55,972 nucleotides of DNA. Origin: Bacillota bacterium. Its GTDB lineage: Bacteria > Sysuimicrobiota > Sysuimicrobiia > Sysuimicrobiales > Segetimicrobiaceae. The notes beneath the pieces are model-generated. The model saw only the letters and a list, made by a program, of their open reading frames with translations, was not told the DNA's origin and searched no databases. This document shows positions 6,222 to 42,620 of this stretch, one piece after another. Location: positions 1 to 55,972 of the forward strand of contig JAJPIA010000009.1 in the NCBI GenBank assembly GCA_021324975.1, written 5' to 3'. Numbering within the stretch: position 1 is the stretch's first letter; each line of letters begins with the position of its first letter. Both the position numbers and the translations under genes were made by a program.

Positions 6222-7262
6222 CTACGAGTTGGCCGCGCTGGCCGCCGGGCGGTACACTGCCGCCTTGCTCCGCTGGGTCTTGAACGGCCGTACGGGGCAG
6301 GCGACGAAGTGGCCGTTGCCGATGTCGACGAACTCGGGCTCGTCCACGCTGCAGCTCGGCTGTGCATAAAGGCAGCGCGTGTGGAACCGGCAGCCGGACG
6401 GCGGGTTCACCGGGCTCGGCACGTCGCCCGGCAGGATGATGCGCTCCCGCCGCATCTCCGGGTTCGGGATCGGGACCGCGGACAGCAGCGCCTCCGTGTA
6501 CGGATGCTGGGGGTTCGAGAACAGCTCATCCGCATCCGCGAGTTCCACGATCTTGCCGAGATACATGACGGCGATGCGGTCGCTGATGTGCTTGACCACC
6601 GAGAGATCGTGCGCGATGAACAGGTAGGTCAGGCCGAATTCCTTTTGCAGCTCCTGCAGGAGGTTGAGCACCTGCGCCTGGATGCTCACGTCCAGTGCCG
6701 AGACCGGCTCGTCGGCGATGATCAGCTTCGGGTTCACGGCGAGCGCCCGGGCGATGCCGATGCGCTGACGCTGCCCGCCACTGAACTCGTGCGGATACCG
6801 GTTCGCATGGTACGGCGACAGCCCGACGACCTCGAGGAGCTCCTGCACGCGGCGGACCTTCTCCTTGCCGCGGGCCAGGTTGTGGATCTCCAGCGGCTCG
6901 CCGATGATGTCGCCGACGGTCATCCGGGGGTTGAGCGAGGAGTAGGGATCCTGGAAGATAATCTGCATGTTGCGGCGCATCCGCCGAAGCTCTTCCTTGC
7001 CCAGCTTGAAGATGTCGCGGGTCTCGAACAGCGCTTCGCCGGTCGTTGGCTCCTGGAGCCGTAGAATGACGCGGCCGGTCGTCGTCTTGCCGCACCCGGA
7101 CTCGCCGACGAGGCCCAGCGTCTCACCCTTCCGGATGTAGAAGCTCAGGCCGTCTACGGCCCGGACCGCTCCGACCTGCCGCTGGAAGATGAACCCCTTC
7201 GTAACCGGGTAATGTTTGACGAGGTGCTTGACCTCCAGGAGAATCTCGCCGTTGCCTGCCAT
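6222..7262 (-). CDS. Oligopeptide/dipeptide ABC transporter ATPase, DppF/OppF type
   Basis: Cytoplasmic ATPase of 346 aa that powers peptide uptake as a heterodimer with the DppD-type protein encoded just upstream. It shows Walker [11 protein letters not shown]-loop QEPTTG and [13 protein letters not shown], signature [12 protein letters not shown], Walker [15 protein letters not shown] and the H-loop IAHDLSVV. The C-terminal oligopeptide-transporter extension includes [16 protein letters not shown], whose Cys spacing is typical of DppD/F. GGGAGGG three bases before the ATG sets the start. This is the only F-type ATPase in the window, so it probably serves both permease sets. Confidence 0.93.
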
Positions 7263-20124: not shown

Positions 20125-20886
20125 CTACGTCGGCGCACGGGGGTGCGCCGGGGGGCCTTCGATCTCCCGTAGGATTTCCTCGGCAGCCCGGCGCGGGTCG
20201 GGCGCGTGCGTGATCGGTCGTCCCACGACAAGCAGGTCGGCGCCCGCCCGGACGGCGGCGCTTGCGGTGCGCACGCGACGTTGGTCGTCCGGGGCGCCGC
20301 CCGCTGGACGGATGCCGGGGCAGACGAGGAGGAACTCGGGGCCGCACGCCGCCCGGACTGGTTCGACCTCCAGCGGCGAGACCACCACCCCGTCGAGCCC
20401 GGCGGCCCTGGCGAGATGCGCGAGCCGCAGCGCCACATCCGTGGGCGTGCCGGCGGCGCCGATCTCTCGGAGCGTCCGCTCGTCGATACTGGTCAGGAGC
20501 GTTACCCCGATGATCCGTGCCGGCCCGACGCCGGTGTCACGAAACGCACGATGGGCGGCCTCGCGCGCCGCCCGCATCATCTCGGTGCCACCCGATGCGT
20601 GCACGGTGCAGAGCGCGATGCCATGCCTCGCGGCTGCCCCGACGGCGGCGCCGACCGTGGTGGGAATATCGTGGAACTTCATATCGAGAAAGACACGTCC
20701 CCGCTGCGCGATCGCGGCGATTGCGCGCGGTCCGGCTGTCGTGAACAGCTGCGACCCGATCTTGAACCAGCCCACCACACCCCGCAGCCGGTCGGCGAGC
20801 GCCTCGGCCTCGTCGAGCGCAGGGACGTCCAATGCCACGATCAGGCGGTCACGCGGATCGGTTCGGGCACCCTGCCATTCAGACAT
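20125..20886 (-). CDS. pyrF: Orotidine 5'-phosphate decarboxylase
   Basis: Final step of de novo UMP synthesis (OMP to UMP plus CO2), 253 aa TIM barrel. Motifs present: LIVALDVPALDEA with the substrate-binding Asp, WFKIGSQLFTTAGP, and the catalytic block VFLDMKFHDIPTTV (Asp-x-Lys-x-x-Asp). Also present are TVHASGGTEMM, IIGVTLLTSID, and the C-terminal CPGIRPAGGAPDDQRRV with LLVVGRPITHAPDP. No other pyr gene is nearby, and its neighbours encode exported proteins, so it looks like an isolated housekeeping gene. The ribosome site at the ATG (20886) is weak. Confidence 0.95.
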   Translation of the reverse strand: MSEWQGARTDPRDRLIVALDVPALDEAEALADRLRGVVGWFKIGSQLFTTAGPRAIAAIAQRGRVFLDMKFHDIPTTVGAAVGAAARHGIALCTVHASGGTEMMRAAREAAHRAFRDTGVGPARIIGVTLLTSIDERTLREIGAAGTPTDVALRLAHLARAAGLDGVVVSPLEVEPVRAACGPEFLLVCPGIRPAGGAPDDQRRVRTASAAVRAGADLLVVGRPITHAPDPRRAAEEILREIEGPPAHPRAPT

Positions 20887-20925
20887 CGATCGTCGCCGAG
20901 CCGGTCTCCTCGCCCCGGCGTTGTG

Positions 20926-21270
20926 CTACGGGAGGCAACGATCCACGAGCGCCTGCACGGCCGATCCGTTGCCGCCTCCACCCCACACGCCGTCCGCCCA
21001 GGACCGGAAGAGCCCGAGCTTGTCGCCGCGGGAATCCAGACACTGGAACAGCGTGAGCGTTTTTTGGCTGCTGATGGATCTGCCGCCCTGCGTGGCGTTC
21101 GCGAACAGGGAGACCGTATCGTATACGCCGGCCGCGTAGCCATTCTTGAACGACTCGTTGTCGCGTTGAATATCGGAGACGCCTTCGAAATACGCTCCCG
21201 GCGACGCCACGGCGGCAACGGCACATCCGGCGACAAATGAGAACGCGCATGCGACGATCAATCTCATCAT
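20926..21270 (-). CDS. Small secreted protein, possibly Rap1a/Tai-like
   Basis: 114 aa with a signal peptide (MMRLIVACAFSFVAGCAVAA) and a strong ribosome site (AAGGGGGGA, 4 nt before the ATG). The mature part has NGYAAGVYDTVSLF, FQCLDSRGDKLGLFRSWADG and a C-terminal RCLP, so two Cys could pair. The order (Y-x-x-GV-D, central Cys, terminal Cys) recalls small Rap1a/Tai-type periplasmic proteins, but the match is loose and from memory. It lies 39 bp upstream of pyrF. Confidence 0.7.
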   Translation of the reverse strand: MMRLIVACAFSFVAGCAVAAVASPGAYFEGVSDIQRDNESFKNGYAAGVYDTVSLFANATQGGRSISSQKTLTLFQCLDSRGDKLGLFRSWADGVWGGGGNGSAVQALVDRCLP

Positions 21271-21465
21271 TGCTTCCCCCCCTTGGTCTGGTCCCGACGC
21301 CGGCGTGCACGCGGACGGGCTCGCGACGAACGCTCGATGGGATCCGCGGACGAAAATTCTACGAGACGCCCCGCGCTCCTCGGTTGATTGCGGGCGTGCT
21401 CCGGCCTGGCGGAATGGCGGATCGTGTTGGATGCAGTTGGCCTGTCCGGCCTCGCAGCCGCCAAC

Positions 21466-21499
21466 GAGAAAAGGGCGCGGGGGGTCAAACCCCGCGCCC
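21466..21499 (-). terminator. Rho-independent terminator of the Gly/Asn-repeat gene
   Basis: On the minus strand a 10-bp GC stem (21490-21499 with 21473-21482, 7-nt loop) is followed at once by TTTTCTCG. It lies 40 bp beyond the stop of the repeat-protein gene. Confidence 0.75.
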
Positions 21500-21539
21500 G
21501 GACGTGACGTCGCTCTACGCGGCCACGCGACGCGTCACG

Positions 21540-22418
21540 TCAGAGGTTACCCGAGCCGCCGGCGCCGCCGTTCCCGCCGGCACCGCCGTTGCCGGACCCG
21601 TTGCTGTTCCCGTTTCCGCCGGCGCCGCCGTTCCCGCCTGCGCCACCGTTGCCGGACCCGTTGGCGTTGTTACTGCCGCCGGCGCCGCCGTTACCGCCCG
21701 GGCCGCCGTTGCCGGAATTCCCGCTGTTGTTATTGCCGCCCGCGCCCCCGTTGCCGCCAGGGCCGCCGTTGCCGGAGTCCGCGGTGTTGTTCGTGCCGCC
21801 GATCCCTCCGCGCCCCCCGGCCCCACCGTTGCCGGACGTACCGGAGGAGGACGACGTGGTGGTGGCCGTTCCGACGGCCGGCGCCGCTGTCGTGGTGGAA
21901 GCTGCGGGCGCTGCGGTGGTCGAACTGGTCGAGCTACTGGGCGGTGTCGTCGTTGCCGGGGTCGTGGCGGGCGTCGTCGTGGTCGTGCTCGACGCCGGCG
22001 CGGTACCCGTGGTGGATGTAGGCGCCGCCGTGCTCGTGCTCGAGGCCGACGATGGGGTACCGGATGACGAGGTCGTGGTCGTCCCTGACGCCGTGCCCGA
22101 CGTGGCCGGGGTCGCCGACGATGAGCCCGACGCCCCGTTGGAACCTGTGGATCCCGCCGTGCCTGACGTGGTCCCCGTCGCGCTGCCGGTGGACGACGTG
22201 GCCCCGCTCGTCGTGGAGGCGGTCGTCGTCCCGCTCGAGGACGTGGACGAGCCGTTCGTGACGCCCTGCTGTCCCTGCGGGGCGGCCTGTGCGTGCGCCG
22301 CCGGAATGGCGGTCCCCAGGACGCACGCCGGCATGGCGGCAGCCACCGCGGCCGTCACGGCCACGCGCACCCACCCCGCTAAGCGGCGCTTGGGGAACCT
22401 CACGTGTTCATGGATCAT
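21540..22418 (-). CDS. Exported Ser/Thr/Ala-rich protein with PGRS-like Gly/Asn repeats
   Basis: 292 aa of mostly low complexity. A signal peptide (VRVAVTAAVAAAMPACVLGT, then IPAAHA) precedes about 145 residues of Ser, Thr, Ala, Pro and Gly with no charged residues. After this come five 20-residue units of the type SGNGGAGGNGGAGG plus a variable Asn/Ser end. The glycine triplets resemble mycobacterial PE_PGRS and other cell-surface Gly-rich proteins, though no PE domain is present. GAGGTGA 8 nt before the ATG at 22418 sets the start; the GTG at 22430 is less well placed. It is monocistronic, with its own terminator, and probably a surface or matrix protein. Confidence 0.78.
   Translation of the reverse strand: MIHEHVRFPKRRLAGWVRVAVTAAVAAAMPACVLGTAIPAAHAQAAPQGQQGVTNGSSTSSSGTTTASTTSGATSSTGSATGTTSGTAGSTGSNGASGSSSATPATSGTASGTTTTSSSGTPSSASSTSTAAPTSTTGTAPASSTTTTTPATTPATTTPPSSSTSSTTAAPAASTTTAAPAVGTATTTSSSSGTSGNGGAGGRGGIGGTNNTADSGNGGPGGNGGAGGNNNSGNSGNGGPGGNGGAGGSNNANGSGNGGAGGNGGAGGNGNSNGSGNGGAGGNGGAGGSGNL
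21543..21836 (-). repeat. Five tandem 60-bp units coding the Gly/Asn repeats
   Basis: Counting from 21836 down, units of exactly 60 bp start at 21836, 21776, 21716 and 21656; the last (21596-21543) is 54 bp and ends at the stop codon. Each encodes SGNGG(A/P)GG(N/R)GG(A/I)GG and six variable residues. Confidence 0.85.
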
Positions 22419-22430
22419 CTCGGAGCTCAC

Positions 22431-23082
22431 CTCGAAGGAGTGTTGTCGCGATGTTTCGGAGGCAGGAGCACGTGATCAGGCCACCACACGCATGCGCATC
22501 ACCTCCTTCCGTCCCGCGTCTCGCCCGTGATATTGTCGCGGCCGCAGACACCGTCCGCTGCGCTCGCCACCTTACTCGCCCCAGATTACGGTCACGAGAC
22601 GATCTCTTCCATTGGCGCGCCCGGCCCGCAATTCGCCAAAGTTCAACCAAAGACGCTAGTCCGGAATCGTGGAAAAAGTCTAAAGGTGGCCATCCATCGC
22701 GCTAGCCATGGCCTGCTCCGATGGAGCCCCGGCGGTGCGCTGACTTGTACGTACGAGGAGCGGCACCGGGCCATCGGGCACCGGCATAGGGTTATCGGAG
22801 ACCAGCGGGGACCAGCAAACCGCCGCGGCAGCTTTGCAGGGGCTTTGCTCAACATTAACGTGAGCCTGCTATCATGCGATGCGACGGCGCGCACGGAGGG
22901 GCCCATCATCGGGACCGCGTTCGGGCAGCATGCGACACTGTGGCTCTTCGTCGCAGGCCTCGCAGCGCTCGTGACGGCTGAGCTGGCGCTCGTCGCGAGC
23001 GGGCTTCTGCGGATTCCCGGGGCCGACGTGGCGGAGCAAGACTCGTATCTGTGGTCGCTCTATACGCACGGGCGACACGGCC
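22431..23082. other. 650-bp intergenic region with a leader mini-ORF and a possible MFS remnant
   Basis: No convincing complete gene. On the minus strand a very strong ribosome site precedes a 7-codon ORF (22476-22499). On the plus strand about 22896-23040 reads GPIIGTAFGQHATLWLF followed by a hydrophobic helix, resembling the C-terminus of an MFS transporter, but it has no start and runs into the opposing MFS gene. The rest holds only overlapping frames with no family features. Confidence 0.5.
22476..22499 (-). promoter_or_regulatory. Leader mini-ORF with near-perfect Shine-Dalgarno
   Basis: GGAAGGAGGTGAT (22498-22510, minus strand) matches the full anti-SD of 16S rRNA. It is followed by ATGCGCATGCG; both ATGs are in frame and read MRMRVVA then stop, or MRVVA from the second ATG at better spacing. 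It lies about 58 bp upstream of the repeat-protein start, in the same direction. Confidence 0.4.
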
Positions 23083-24648
23083 CTAGCCATCCGCGGCGTT
23101 GCCGCGCCGCAGGAACACCAGGAGCGGCAGGCACAGCAGCGAGACCAGGCCGATCATGCCAAACGCGTAGTCGTACCCCACGACGGCCGCCTGCTGATCC
23201 AGCAGCCGCTCGAGCCATGACAGCGCCTGCCGGTGGGCCACGCCGGGGACGCTCCCACGCTGCAGGAAGGTCGCCTCGTAGATCGCCCACCACCGCACGA
23301 ACGTAGCGTTCGACAAGGAGGCGTAGCGGATCAGATTGGCGCTCGCGGTCGTCGTCCGATGATCCACGAGGGTGATCGCGATCGCGGTGCCCAAGCTGCT
23401 GCCCAACTGCCGCAGGAGGCTGTTGATGCCGGTCGCGCTCTGCATGAGCCTGCGGGGGATCGTGGACAAGGACGTGGTGGTGAGCGACACAAAGACAAAC
23501 GCGGACCCAAGCCCCTGGATGACTTGCGGCAGGAGCAGTTGGGCGGGTCCGCTCGCCAGATTGAACCCCGCCATCTGAAAGCAGGACAACGCGCTGAGGC
23601 CGATGCCCACGAGCAGCATGACGTATACGCCGACGCGATTGTAGAGTGCCCCGGCGGCCGGCATCACGAGCACCATCGTGAGCGCCCGCGGCATCACGGT
23701 GACGCCGGATTGTATCGGACTGTATCCCAGCACGTTTTGAAGAAAGAGCGGCAAAAGCACCAGGCTCCCGAACCGCGTTAGGCTGACGAGGCCGCCGATG
23801 AAGGTCCCCGCGGCAAACGACAGATTGCGCAGGATCCGCAGGTTCACCGCCGGCTCGGAGGTGCGGAACTCCCACGCGATGAAGGCGGCGAGCGCCAGGG
23901 CGGAGAGCACCGAGAGCGTCACGATAAAGTCGCTCTGAAACCATCCGTCCTGCTCGCCCTGCTCGAGGACGACCTGCATGGCCGCCAGCCCGATCGCCAT
24001 GAGGCCGATCCCGACCGCGTCGAGCCGGCGGAGCCCCTTGGCCCGCATGTACGGCGGGTCGGTGATGAACTGCGCGCCGAGCAACAACCCCGCGATGCCC
24101 ACGGGCACGTTCACGAAGAAAATCCACGGCCAGGACTGCGCCTCCGTGATCCAGCCCCCGAGCGTCGGGCCGACTGCGGGGCCGAGGAGGACGATCATGC
24201 CGTAAAAGGCCATGGCCTGAGCTTGCTCTTCCACGGGGAAGGTTTCTCGCATGATGGCCTGCGCCGTCGGCTGCAGCGCGCCACCGCCCAGCCCCTGGAG
24301 CACGCGAAAAGCGATGAGCTGGCCGAGAGTGCGCGACAATCCGCACAGCAGCGATGCCCCGGTGAAGATGCTGATCGCCGCGAGGAACATCCGCTTGCGG
24401 CCGAGGACGGACGACACCCACGCGGTGAGCGGCATGGTGATGACGAGCGTGATCAGATAGGAGGTGGTCACCCATGCGACCTCGTGGGTCGTGACCCCGT
24501 ACGCCGCCTGGATGTGCGGGAGCGATACCGTGACCACGCTGGTATCGATGGAGGCCATCATCGAGCCCGAGAGCACCGAGGCGGCGACGACCCACTTGCC
24601 GGGATGCGCCGGCGCACTCTGCCCCGCAGGCGTCGCGACTACCGCCAC
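23083..24648 (-). CDS. DHA2-family MFS drug/proton antiporter (EmrB/QacA type)
   Basis: Inner-membrane exporter of about 521 aa with 14 predicted helices. Motif A-like loop is VSSVLGRKRMFLAAI, motif B RVLQGLGGGALQP, and motif C GPAVGPTLGGWI; MASIDTSVVTVSLPHI in helix 1 is diagnostic of DHA2. The length matches EmrB. I chose the GTG at 24648 because GAGAGGGG lies 5 nt upstream; the GTG at 24654 is nearly equivalent. There is no HlyD/EmrA adaptor and no regulator next to it, so any outer-membrane partner is elsewhere or absent. Substrate unknown; multidrug or lipid export are the usual roles. Confidence 0.92.
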   Translation of the reverse strand: MAVVATPAGQSAPAHPGKWVVAASVLSGSMMASIDTSVVTVSLPHIQAAYGVTTHEVAWVTTSYLITLVITMPLTAWVSSVLGRKRMFLAAISIFTGASLLCGLSRTLGQLIAFRVLQGLGGGALQPTAQAIMRETFPVEEQAQAMAFYGMIVLLGPAVGPTLGGWITEAQSWPWIFFVNVPVGIAGLLLGAQFITDPPYMRAKGLRRLDAVGIGLMAIGLAAMQVVLEQGEQDGWFQSDFIVTLSVLSALALAAFIAWEFRTSEPAVNLRILRNLSFAAGTFIGGLVSLTRFGSLVLLPLFLQNVLGYSPIQSGVTVMPRALTMVLVMPAAGALYNRVGVYVMLLVGIGLSALSCFQMAGFNLASGPAQLLLPQVIQGLGSAFVFVSLTTTSLSTIPRRLMQSATGINSLLRQLGSSLGTAIAITLVDHRTTTASANLIRYASLSNATFVRWWAIYEATFLQRGSVPGVAHRQALSWLERLLDQQAAVVGYDYAFGMIGLVSLLCLPLLVFLRRGNAADG

Positions 24649-24906: not shown

Positions 24907-25731
24907 TTAGAGGCGGCGGACGGGAGCGTCGATCGGGCCGAGCGGGTTCTGTCCCGCGGGCACGCGCGTCACGCATCCGAACGACGACGCGGCCACGGCA
25001 TCGACCTCGGTGGTAGCGGCCCCTGTGCGCTCCCATGCCGCCAGACCCACGACAACGCCGCCAGCCAGCACCGGGGCGCCCGAGTCACCGTTCACGGGGG
25101 CCGCGGCGGCGCGGAAGCTCATCTTGAGAATGATCGCGCCGTCAGAAGCCCGGACGGTACCGGTCAGGTCCCCCTCCCTGTCCGCCGCAGAGGGCGACGG
25201 CCCGGCGTGCCCTCCGAATCCGATGACACGCACACCATGAGCCCGGGGTGACGGGGAGCCCGTCTCGATCCGTAGCGGGACGGCCGCCAAGGCCGATGTC
25301 GCGGGCACAAACTGCCAGAGCGGGAACAACGGCACCTCGGGCCCGACCCGAACGATCGCGACGTCGCGACCGAGTGCTCCGGGGGTACCGCGCATCGCCG
25401 GATTCCAGCACTCCACCCGCGCGGCATATTCCGTGCGATTCACCACGGCGACCAGCATGACGTTGGGGTCTCGCACAGCGTCCGCCACCACGTGCGAGGC
25501 AGTGTAGGCGTCGCCGGACCTGTCGAAGAAGAACGCGGACCCGTACTCGTACGGCTGCCACGTGTGCTTGTCCACCATCACGAGCAGCACCACGCCGGGT
25601 CCGCCGGCGGCCGCCGCGCCCGGCGGGCATGGCATCCCGCCCGCGACCGCCACGAGCGCAACACACGCCGCGATACCCAGCGCCCGGCGAGCGCGCCCGC
25701 TCGCCCGTGGCCTGCCGGTCAACCCCGGCAT
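24907..25731 (-). CDS. Secreted trypsin-like serine protease (S1 fold)
   Basis: 274 aa with an N-terminal hydrophobic export signal (ALGIAACVALVAVAGG). The catalytic triad is visible: His in YTASHVVAD, Asp in GRDVAIVRVG, Ser in VNGDSGAPVL. No PDZ domain follows, and the C-terminus (PLGPIDAPVRRL) is short, so it is a single-domain extracytoplasmic protease rather than a full HtrA. The ATG at 25731 has no strong ribosome site. It starts 16 bp past the stop of the frameshifted binding-protein gene, so the two are likely co-transcribed. Target unknown. Confidence 0.8.
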   Translation of the reverse strand: MPGLTGRPRASGRARRALGIAACVALVAVAGGMPCPPGAAAAGGPGVVLLVMVDKHTWQPYEYGSAFFFDRSGDAYTASHVVADAVRDPNVMLVAVVNRTEYAARVECWNPAMRGTPGALGRDVAIVRVGPEVPLFPLWQFVPATSALAAVPLRIETGSPSPRAHGVRVIGFGGHAGPSPSAADREGDLTGTVRASDGAIILKMSFRAAAAPVNGDSGAPVLAGGVVVGLAAWERTGAATTEVDAVAASSFGCVTRVPAGQNPLGPIDAPVRRL

Positions 25732-40646: not shown

Positions 40647-42620
40647 CTAGAAGCTGTAGTCGATCTGCGCCCGGTACAGCAGGAACTGTTCCGTGCTCGC
40701 GATCTGGGCCTCGCGAACCTTGAACGTGATGTTGGCATTCTGTACGAAGTTGTACACAATGCCGACCTCATACGTGGACAGGTTTTGCCCGGTGAAGGCA
40801 AAGTTGCCGAACGCGCCGTTCCCGTAGATCGTCCAGTGGTCGATCGGCGAGATGCTCAGTCCGACGGTCCAGGCATTGCCGTTGCCCGGGTACAGGAAGT
40901 CGTTCTCCTGAATGTCGATCTCGGCTGCGCCGTACGGCGGGTAGAAGTTCTGGCCGTAGTTCTCGTAGCCGGCGTCCATCGTGAAGTTGTGGCCGATCCC
41001 CGTGATGGACCCGAGGTCGAGGTGAACGTTGACCTTCCAGCCGTTATCGCTGGTCCCGAAGACAGAGTCGTTCCACGAGCCATACTCGCCGTCGAACGTG
41101 ATGCCCGGAATGATGTTCCAGTCGAGGTACCCGCTCCAGCCGTTGCCGGATGCAGGACACGCGATACCCGGACCCGCGCCCGCGGTCGACGTGACCGAGA
41201 CGCAGTGGAAGCCGCCACTGGTCAGCGAGGCTGTGCCGAGACCAGGGTTGATGGAGCCGCCGCCCGGACCGTACACGTGCCACTGCGCCGCGTTGCCAAA
41301 CCCACCGGGCCCGGCCGCGTTGTTCGCCGGGGTGATGGTGTTTGCGACGTAGTCGCCGCCGATGCGGAGCCCGGGCAGGATTCGGATGTTGACGTTCCCG
41401 CCGTAGGCGTCCTCGCCGAAGATGAAGTTGCCGCTGGACAGCGACGGGATCGACGCGTTGAACGGGCTGCCGTTGTTACCCTGGATCCGGATGATCGCGA
41501 GCTCGAACTGCAGGTCCGCCGCGGCCGGGATGTGGCCCTGCACCCGGAGACCGTCCGCGACGTTGAACCCGCTGTCAGCAGTCGAGTCTTCCCAGGTGTC
41601 CCCGTTGTCGTTCATGACGAGGCCGAAGGGACCCCACTGGATCGGGTAGCACCCGCCGCCGCACGGCGTATCGTTGCCGAACCGGCCGAGCATGATCTCG
41701 AGCGGCAGGCCCCACGCGTTCCGCCAGTCGAGGAACGCGCTATCGATCGTGCCGAACGCGCCGTTGCCAAAGGCCGAGCCGCCCACGCCGGCGCCGAAGA
41801 CGCCGTTGGACGACGACGTGCCGATCTGCCCGCTGTTGAAGATCTGGTAGCCACCGGCGCTGAGAAGCCCGATGACGTAGTGGATGTCGGGCGTGACGGA
41901 GCCGTCAAACCCGAGCTTGAACTCGTACCGCGGCCGGTTGAACGTTCCCGCCGAGCCCGCGTTGATCTGGCTCGACCGCGGGTTGCCGTTGATGCCGAAC
42001 GCGCTGCTCGTCCCGTTCTGGAGGAACTGCGCCGTTCCGGCGCCGAGCCCGCCGACCGTCGCGCCATTTGCCACGGTCCCGAGGTTCTGCGGGCCGCTCT
42101 TACCGTCGGTGATCGTCTGGGCCGTGCCGGTCGTATTGGTGCCGGTCGCCGTGCCGTAGGTGGTGCGCGCGATGTCCCAGCGGAACCGGAGGCCGCCCGT
42201 CACCCGGACGTTGTCCAGCCGCGCCTTGATCGCGTTGAGCTCTTCCTCGATTGCGGTCACGCGCACACCCAACGCCGCCAACTCGGCCCGGAACTCGTTG
42301 ATCAGCCGGTTGATGGCGTCGAGATCTGCTTTGGTCACTTCCGGCGGCGTCGGAGCGGGAATCTGAATGCTCTCGATCCGCGCCAACAGCCGCGCCACCA
42401 CCATTGCCATTTCATACCGCGTCATGGCCCGGTCGCCCTTGAAGGTGCCGTCGGGATAACCTTCGATCAGGCCCTTCGCCGCCAGCTCAGCGATCGCGTC
42501 GTAGGCCCAGTGGTTCGTGGGCACGTCCGCGAACGGCTGCGCGAAGGCGGGAGCTACCACGGCAAACACGAGCGCGGCTGCAGCAATAACCGCAACATGC
42601 CTCATGTTGCCCAATGTCAT
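40647..42620 (-). CDS. SLH-domain outer-membrane porin
   Basis: 657 aa; a signal peptide (MRHVAVIAAAALVFAVVAPA plus FA) precedes one SLH domain (PFADVPTNHWAYDAIAELAA, GYPDGTFKGDRAMTRYEMA) that binds the peptidoglycan-linked polymer. A coiled coil follows (about residues 75-125, LINEFRAELAALGVRVTAIE), then a long Gly/Asn/aromatic-rich beta-barrel ending FLLYRAQIDYSF, whose terminal Phe is the BAM recognition signal. This layout is the SLH-OprB-like porin of Cyanobacteria and Deinococcus-type diderms. The ATG at 42620 has AAGGGGG abutting it; the ATG at 42605 (MRHV) has wider spacing, and both are possible. Confidence 0.88.
   Translation of the reverse strand: MTLGNMRHVAVIAAAALVFAVVAPAFAQPFADVPTNHWAYDAIAELAAKGLIEGYPDGTFKGDRAMTRYEMAMVVARLLARIESIQIPAPTPPEVTKADLDAINRLINEFRAELAALGVRVTAIEEELNAIKARLDNVRVTGGLRFRWDIARTTYGTATGTNTTGTAQTITDGKSGPQNLGTVANGATVGGLGAGTAQFLQNGTSSAFGINGNPRSSQINAGSAGTFNRPRYEFKLGFDGSVTPDIHYVIGLLSAGGYQIFNSGQIGTSSSNGVFGAGVGGSAFGNGAFGTIDSAFLDWRNAWGLPLEIMLGRFGNDTPCGGGCYPIQWGPFGLVMNDNGDTWEDSTADSGFNVADGLRVQGHIPAAADLQFELAIIRIQGNNGSPFNASIPSLSSGNFIFGEDAYGGNVNIRILPGLRIGGDYVANTITPANNAAGPGGFGNAAQWHVYGPGGGSINPGLGTASLTSGGFHCVSVTSTAGAGPGIACPASGNGWSGYLDWNIIPGITFDGEYGSWNDSVFGTSDNGWKVNVHLDLGSITGIGHNFTMDAGYENYGQNFYPPYGAAEIDIQENDFLYPGNGNAWTVGLSISPIDHWTIYGNGAFGNFAFTGQNLSTYEVGIVYNFVQNANITFKVREAQIASTEQFLLYRAQIDYSF

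Follow-up and report, generated by a model that had tools for sequence, protein, structure and literature searches.

The gene at 21540..22418 on the minus strand of the window, by which we mean the whole stretch of 55,972 nucleotides analysed here (contig JAJPIA010000009.1 of assembly GCA_021324975.1), is, as judged from its sequence and that of its relatives, a member of a lineage-specific multigene family. Our main reading, to which we give a probability of roughly 0.55, is that in this soil-type bacterium it encodes a structural or matrix protein that is exported and has a bundle of polyglycine-II (PGII) helices as a tip on a flexible spacer, and that the family turns over by whole genes and not by unit number. 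The gene is laid out as follows.

21540..22418, minus strand: Gly/Asn repeat gene with an exported 292-aa product (open reading frame, translation, composition; GC3 0.86)
22290..22418, minus strand: signal peptide of Sec type, residues 1-43, with AHA and then Q44 (read from the translation)
21834..22289, minus strand: linker of 152 residues (44-195), with T 32%, S 27%, A 16%, G 12%, P 7% and 0 charged residues
21543..21833, minus strand: Gly/Asn domain of 97 residues, five units GNGG[AP]GG[NR]GG[AI]GG plus a 7-residue loop (TRF, translation)
21774..21833, minus strand: unit 1 (translation)
21714..21773, minus strand: unit 2 (translation)
21654..21713, minus strand: unit 3 (translation)
21594..21653, minus strand: unit 4 (translation)
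21543..21593, minus strand: unit 5, with C-terminal SGNL (translation, family C-termini)
21473..21499, minus strand: terminator-like hairpin of 10 G-C pairs, then TTTTCTCGTT (sequence 3' of the repeat gene)

The repeat gene starts with ATG, and an alternative GTG 12 bases upstream is possible. In the translation, the N-terminus runs from basic residues through a hydrophobic stretch to PAAHA-Q, and the other family members have a signal peptide of the same style. The uncharged Ser/Thr/Ala region that the first-pass annotation had placed before the units is indeed there, as the linker. The domain that follows it is 51% Gly and 22% Asn. A strong hairpin, read by eye, also follows most other family genes, and a search of 20800-23200 gave no sigma-70-like promoter. 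Some 60 bases ahead of the start of the repeat gene, a strong Shine-Dalgarno-like AAGGAGGTG is followed by an open frame of 5-7 codons (MRMRVVA; 22476-22509, minus strand), which could encode a leader peptide; the repeat gene itself is served by a second, nearer ribosome site.

The relatives of the gene were sought in the source genome (G000; 4.43 Mb, 144 contigs, 96% complete), in the other two genomes of its genus (G001 and G002), in a genome of a second genus (G006), and more widely. A scan of 20 stretches plus the window locus for open frames that have four or more GGxGG and >20% Gly yielded 19 frames; four of these were set aside as belonging to other families (two with a collagen-like tail and two with a different N-terminal domain), which left 15 of the window-gene kind, among them one truncated at the 3' end and another at the 5' end. 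The source genome itself holds complete paralogues on contigs C25 (530 aa), C106 (692 aa) and C107 (546 aa), and a truncated one at the end of contig C139. Protein searches found the family in 4/41 genomes at E 0.001, and at E 1e-8 in 4/43 genomes of the phylum, within one order; the carriers are all three genomes of the genus plus G006. The phylum may be Sysuimicrobiota (CSP1-3), for which PMC11604079 likewise gives a single order. A DNA pattern for one 13-residue run of the repeat gave 93, 102, 45 and 68 matches in G000, G001, G002 and G006, respectively. Because simple GGC/GGT arrays inflate such counts in some genomes (G008, G009), they were compared with a reversed-pattern control, which gave 47, 46, 25 and 25 matches in the same four genomes, and the other 39 of the 43 phylum genomes were near their own control. 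Among 45 genomes from many phyla, an excess was seen in G002 only, the other 44 being near control. A tblastn search of plasmids with the C25 paralogue gave no match, a result for which the BLAST low-complexity filter may have masked the query.

The genes neighbouring the repeat gene, read by eye, do not point to a function. Two genes upstream lies an exported trypsin-like protease (24907-25731, minus strand; Trypsin_2, E 6e-10), which is also present in the relative that does not have the repeat gene, and at 20926-21270 (minus strand) there is a small exported protein of 114 aa with no Pfam family, to which similar DNA occurs in G001, G002 and G009. Elsewhere, two alike exported proteins from two species (L081:8830-9576 and L091:1862-2569) combine GGxGG with a collagen-like tail and a conserved terminal SGCGVTG. 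In addition, two contig ends, L086 (C16) and L084 (C59), break inside a different repeat, GGGNSNGGGNGN, and may be the halves of one gene.

The five Gly/Asn-rich units of fixed 60-bp period described by the first-pass annotation were recovered both by TRF (period 60, 4.7 copies, 76% matches, score 270; the top of 16 rows in the window) and in the translation, where the spacing between units is a constant 20 residues. The identity of the protein to itself at lag 20 is 0.78, while the best value at any lag from 10 to 49 in 5000 residue shuffles was at most 0.56. The description of the repeats as exact, on the other hand, has to be withdrawn: the units are 65-80% identical to each other as DNA, and the last one is shorter (54 nt including the stop codon). 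Codon usage carries a trace of their origin. In a comparison with shuffled synonymous codons, 42 of the 60 same-residue positions at lag 20 have identical codons where 31.6 would be expected (P 0.0004), and 28 of 43 at lag 40 where 22.5 would be expected (P 0.02); at lags 60 and 80 the same shuffle revealed no clear excess (16/26 and 7/12). Synonymous codons shared beyond chance argue that the units are the products of tandem duplication and have diverged since. In the C25 paralogue the array is nearly exact, its 60-bp units matching their neighbours at up to 97% (58/60 bases), and tandem duplication thus takes place within the family.

Does the number of units vary between relatives, as the first-pass annotation had suggested it might? 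In the sets that could be compared, which come from multi-contig assemblies of different species and not from strains of one species, it appears not to. The proteins of the C107 set measure 546 aa in the source genome, 540 aa in G002 and 551 aa in G001, with pairwise gaps of only 1-7 residues; those of the C106 set measure 692 aa in the source genome and 700 aa in G001, with gaps of 1, 6 and 1. Common neighbours, read by eye, support orthology between C107 and its G002 counterpart and between C106 and its G001 counterpart. Since the gaps are of loop size, the unit number seems to be stable within the genus, and only the 643-aa protein of G006, from the other genus, differs by close to two units (gaps of 33 and 8 residues).

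What does differ between species is the presence of the gene. The two sites concerned are these.

21433..22658, no strand assigned: stretch missing in the nearest relative, where the site is empty; GTCCGG at both edges (comparison with the relative)
L079:5291-6886: C25 paralogue (source genome, contig C25)

The nearest relative, JAJPJL010000109.1 (Bacillota bacterium Centralia_MAG_47; genome G002), keeps both flanks of the window gene at 85-90% identity and lacks everything in between, and the GTCCGG of the two edges occurs once in it. The window gene itself therefore lacks an orthologue with which its unit number could be compared. The C25 gene is absent from the same relative: homology breaks off near L079:5118 and starts again at 7042, the relative having 34 bases in between. 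G001 could not be used as an outgroup, because its assembly has the two flanks of the window gene on separate contigs. From these comparisons, it is whole genes that seem to come and go between species, not repeat copies, gain and loss being alike possible. A mobile element was considered on account of the shared GTCCGG edges, but the cassettes of different family genes have only short or orthologous non-coding pieces in common, and for want of a common non-coding sequence we do not claim a transposon.

Each unit of the window protein consists of a 13-residue run, G-X-GG-X-GG-X-GG-X-GG, followed in all but the last by a 7-residue loop (TNNTADS, NNNSGNS, SNNANGS and NGNSNGS). Altogether, 201 such runs of 13 residues were counted across the 14 family proteins examined. 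The C-terminus is complete in 14 members, and in 13 of these the chain stops exactly four residues past the last GG, which argues that the repeat is the terminal domain, and the third residue of this four-residue tail is Asn in 13/13; the exception, G006:C40, ends two residues past it. LPXTG or another C-terminal sorting signal was looked for and rejected, the window protein ending in GGSGNL. Where the period is 20 residues (the window gene and C25), neighbouring helices resemble each other, agreeing at 0.75 and 0.79 of their variable positions. Four members have a period of 41 residues, namely C106, G001:C119 (second gene), G001:C62 (first) and G006:C26 (second). In parts of their arrays 7-residue loops take turns with 8-residue loops, and variable positions are common to neighbouring helices in a proportion of only 0.07-0.17, against 0.42-0.75 for next-but-one helices. 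These similarities rest on 3-20 helix pairs per protein, and thus on few pairs in some proteins. Antiparallel hairpins whose two edges differ would produce the two-helix period of the 41-residue members, whereas the equal loops of the window gene would give equal edges. In the case of PE_PGRS33, PMC10216338 makes the argument that helices have to be lost in even numbers if the edge is not to be turned over.

AlphaFold2, run on the single sequence of 103 residues at 21543-21851 without an alignment, was uninformative (pLDDT 37.6, pTM 0.16), and we therefore base the PGII fold that we infer for the Gly/Asn domain on the helix register and on the published description of small sandwiches. According to PMC9436101, the small PGII sandwiches of PE_PGRS proteins have 3-4 triplets per helix and 5-6 helices, and the match in helix number and length is what suggests five helices here.

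The PGRS-like repeat chemistry outside mycobacteria that the first-pass annotation proposed holds up, in the shape of an exported multigene family with GGX triplets. The window protein has five runs of 13 residues (the pattern sought being runs of 3-5 GGX triplets), and shares with PE_PGRS proteins the length of about 4 triplets per helix, membership of a multigene family, export, and a linker before the glycine domain. It differs from them in its Sec-type signal, its uncharged Thr/Ser linker, its regular 13+7 period and its phylum. Pfam gave no match at E 0.1 and one unrelated chance match at E 10, with no PE domain at either threshold, and NCBIfam gave no meaningful match; the GRPLI motif is absent from the translation before the glycine domain, and F, W, Y, L, I, V or M, which would form a hydrophobic or aromatic loop edge, occupy 0/28 loop residues. 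These three absences are why we call the protein PGRS-like and not PE_PGRS. EccB (Type VII, ESX-5) was not found in the source genome, nor did it match in the control genomes.

Among other known systems, phage long-tail-fibre tip adhesin gp38 is a glycine-rich PGII sandwich carrying loops, which are irregular; the loops of the window protein are regular, and its search against the sequences of solved structures gave 0 matches. No phage gene was found among those examined beside the repeat gene. The C25 paralogue matched two viral capsid (hexon-interlacing) proteins in the same kind of search, at E 0.03-0.05, which we judged to be chance. RTX calcium repeats have the motif GGxGxDxUx; they were rejected because the 97-residue domain has one Asp and not one per repeat. 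A collagen-like domain (G-X-Y with Pro) was likewise rejected, as the domain is GGX with 2% Pro and has no Pfam match. Literature searches for non-mycobacterial PGRS-like proteins and for glycine-rich PGII sandwiches gave no report of the present family.

Where the protein would end up depends on the envelope of the host. The source genome contains an Omp85 protein, which makes an outer membrane probable; in the control, the same test was positive in 7/14 well-known genomes. SLH-domain proteins were found on contigs C32 and C93, and one of them lies within the window:

42405-42536, minus strand: SLH domain (E 1.5e-14) in a 725-aa open frame

Some diderms tie their outer membrane through SLH porins. 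The 725-aa frame is probably such a porin of a diderm envelope, and the host probably a diderm of the SLH-porin-tethered kind. As to the surface location suggested by the first-pass annotation, neither a surface anchor nor a signal for outer-membrane export can be seen in the window protein, and an exported protein with neither barrel nor anchor may stay in the periplasm.

Putting these elements together, we propose that a free-standing gene encodes a Sec-exported structural protein whose signal peptide would be cut after AHA. The uncharged Thr/Ser-rich stretch would then form a long flexible spacer, plausibly O-glycosylated, and the last 97 residues a small bundle of five antiparallel PGII helices, one per 60-bp unit, in which the G-X-GG run would pack through its glycines and the Asn/Ser loop would turn the chain. 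Such a tip, uncharged, polar and rigid, would probably act in the envelope or extracellular matrix, in cohesion, adhesion or water binding; its polar character and the lack of hydrophobic loop residues speak for a soluble role, matrix-like or water-binding, and against insertion into a membrane. Between species, the family would change by gain or loss of whole genes, with the unit number kept.

Several other explanations deserve consideration. The domain could be a disordered glycine-rich filler or matrix polymer with no fold, kept for its composition only, and the lack of a confident AlphaFold2 structure, which leaves an unfolded glycine-rich chain possible, and the low complexity of the linker are in keeping with this. 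However, the run length recurs across 14 proteins, the C-terminal phase is constant and the orthologues differ by loop-sized indels only, so that we regard a mere filler as unlikely, even if it is the likeliest of the rivals. A phase- or copy-number-variable surface antigen-like protein, whose units expand and contract by slippage or recombination, seems to us less likely still: the excess of common codons at lag 20 and the near-identity of adjacent C25 units fit it, but the window-gene units are only 65-80% identical to each other, and two orthologous sets keep the same number of units across species of the genus.

We would put at about the same low odds an ice- or water-binding protein for protection against cold or desiccation that uses a PGII bundle like the springtail antifreeze proteins. 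Its predicted flat face is uncharged and lined by Asn, Ser and Ala, and the springtail proteins resemble the window protein in the predicted antiparallel bundle of glycine-rich left-handed helices. They have Gly-X-X rather than GGX, no sequence relation to the window protein is detectable and no solved structure matches it, and the nearest relative comes from Centralia, a coal-fire-heated site. Polyproline/polyglycine-II bundles are known ice binders (PMC10235112). Least probable by far is a true PE_PGRS-type protein that inserts into the outer membrane via a hydrophobic loop edge, since it would share the GGX triplets, helix length and multigene character described in PMC9436101, yet would fail three defining features, namely the PE domain, GRPLI and hydrophobic residues in the loops.

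Beyond the structural reading favoured above, it is conceivable, though we hold it only tentatively and with odds clearly below even, that the family is a new class of PGII-bundle proteins that are exported through Sec and do not depend on PE or ESX machinery. The class would have expanded within a single genus of an uncultured diderm phylum, in two architectures (20-residue period and equal edges; 41-residue period and two different edges) and with whole-gene turnover. The study of PGRS domains has been difficult, as the proteins are hard to express and purify in native form and their source is pathogenic mycobacteria (PMC9436101). A relative of 97 residues with five very regular units, from an environmental lineage, would make it simple to test the PGII-sandwich model, and would be a sign that domains of this type can be exported and used without PE domains. 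If the new class is real, it would represent a second origin of PGRS-like envelope proteins and provide a model for the fold outside a pathogen.
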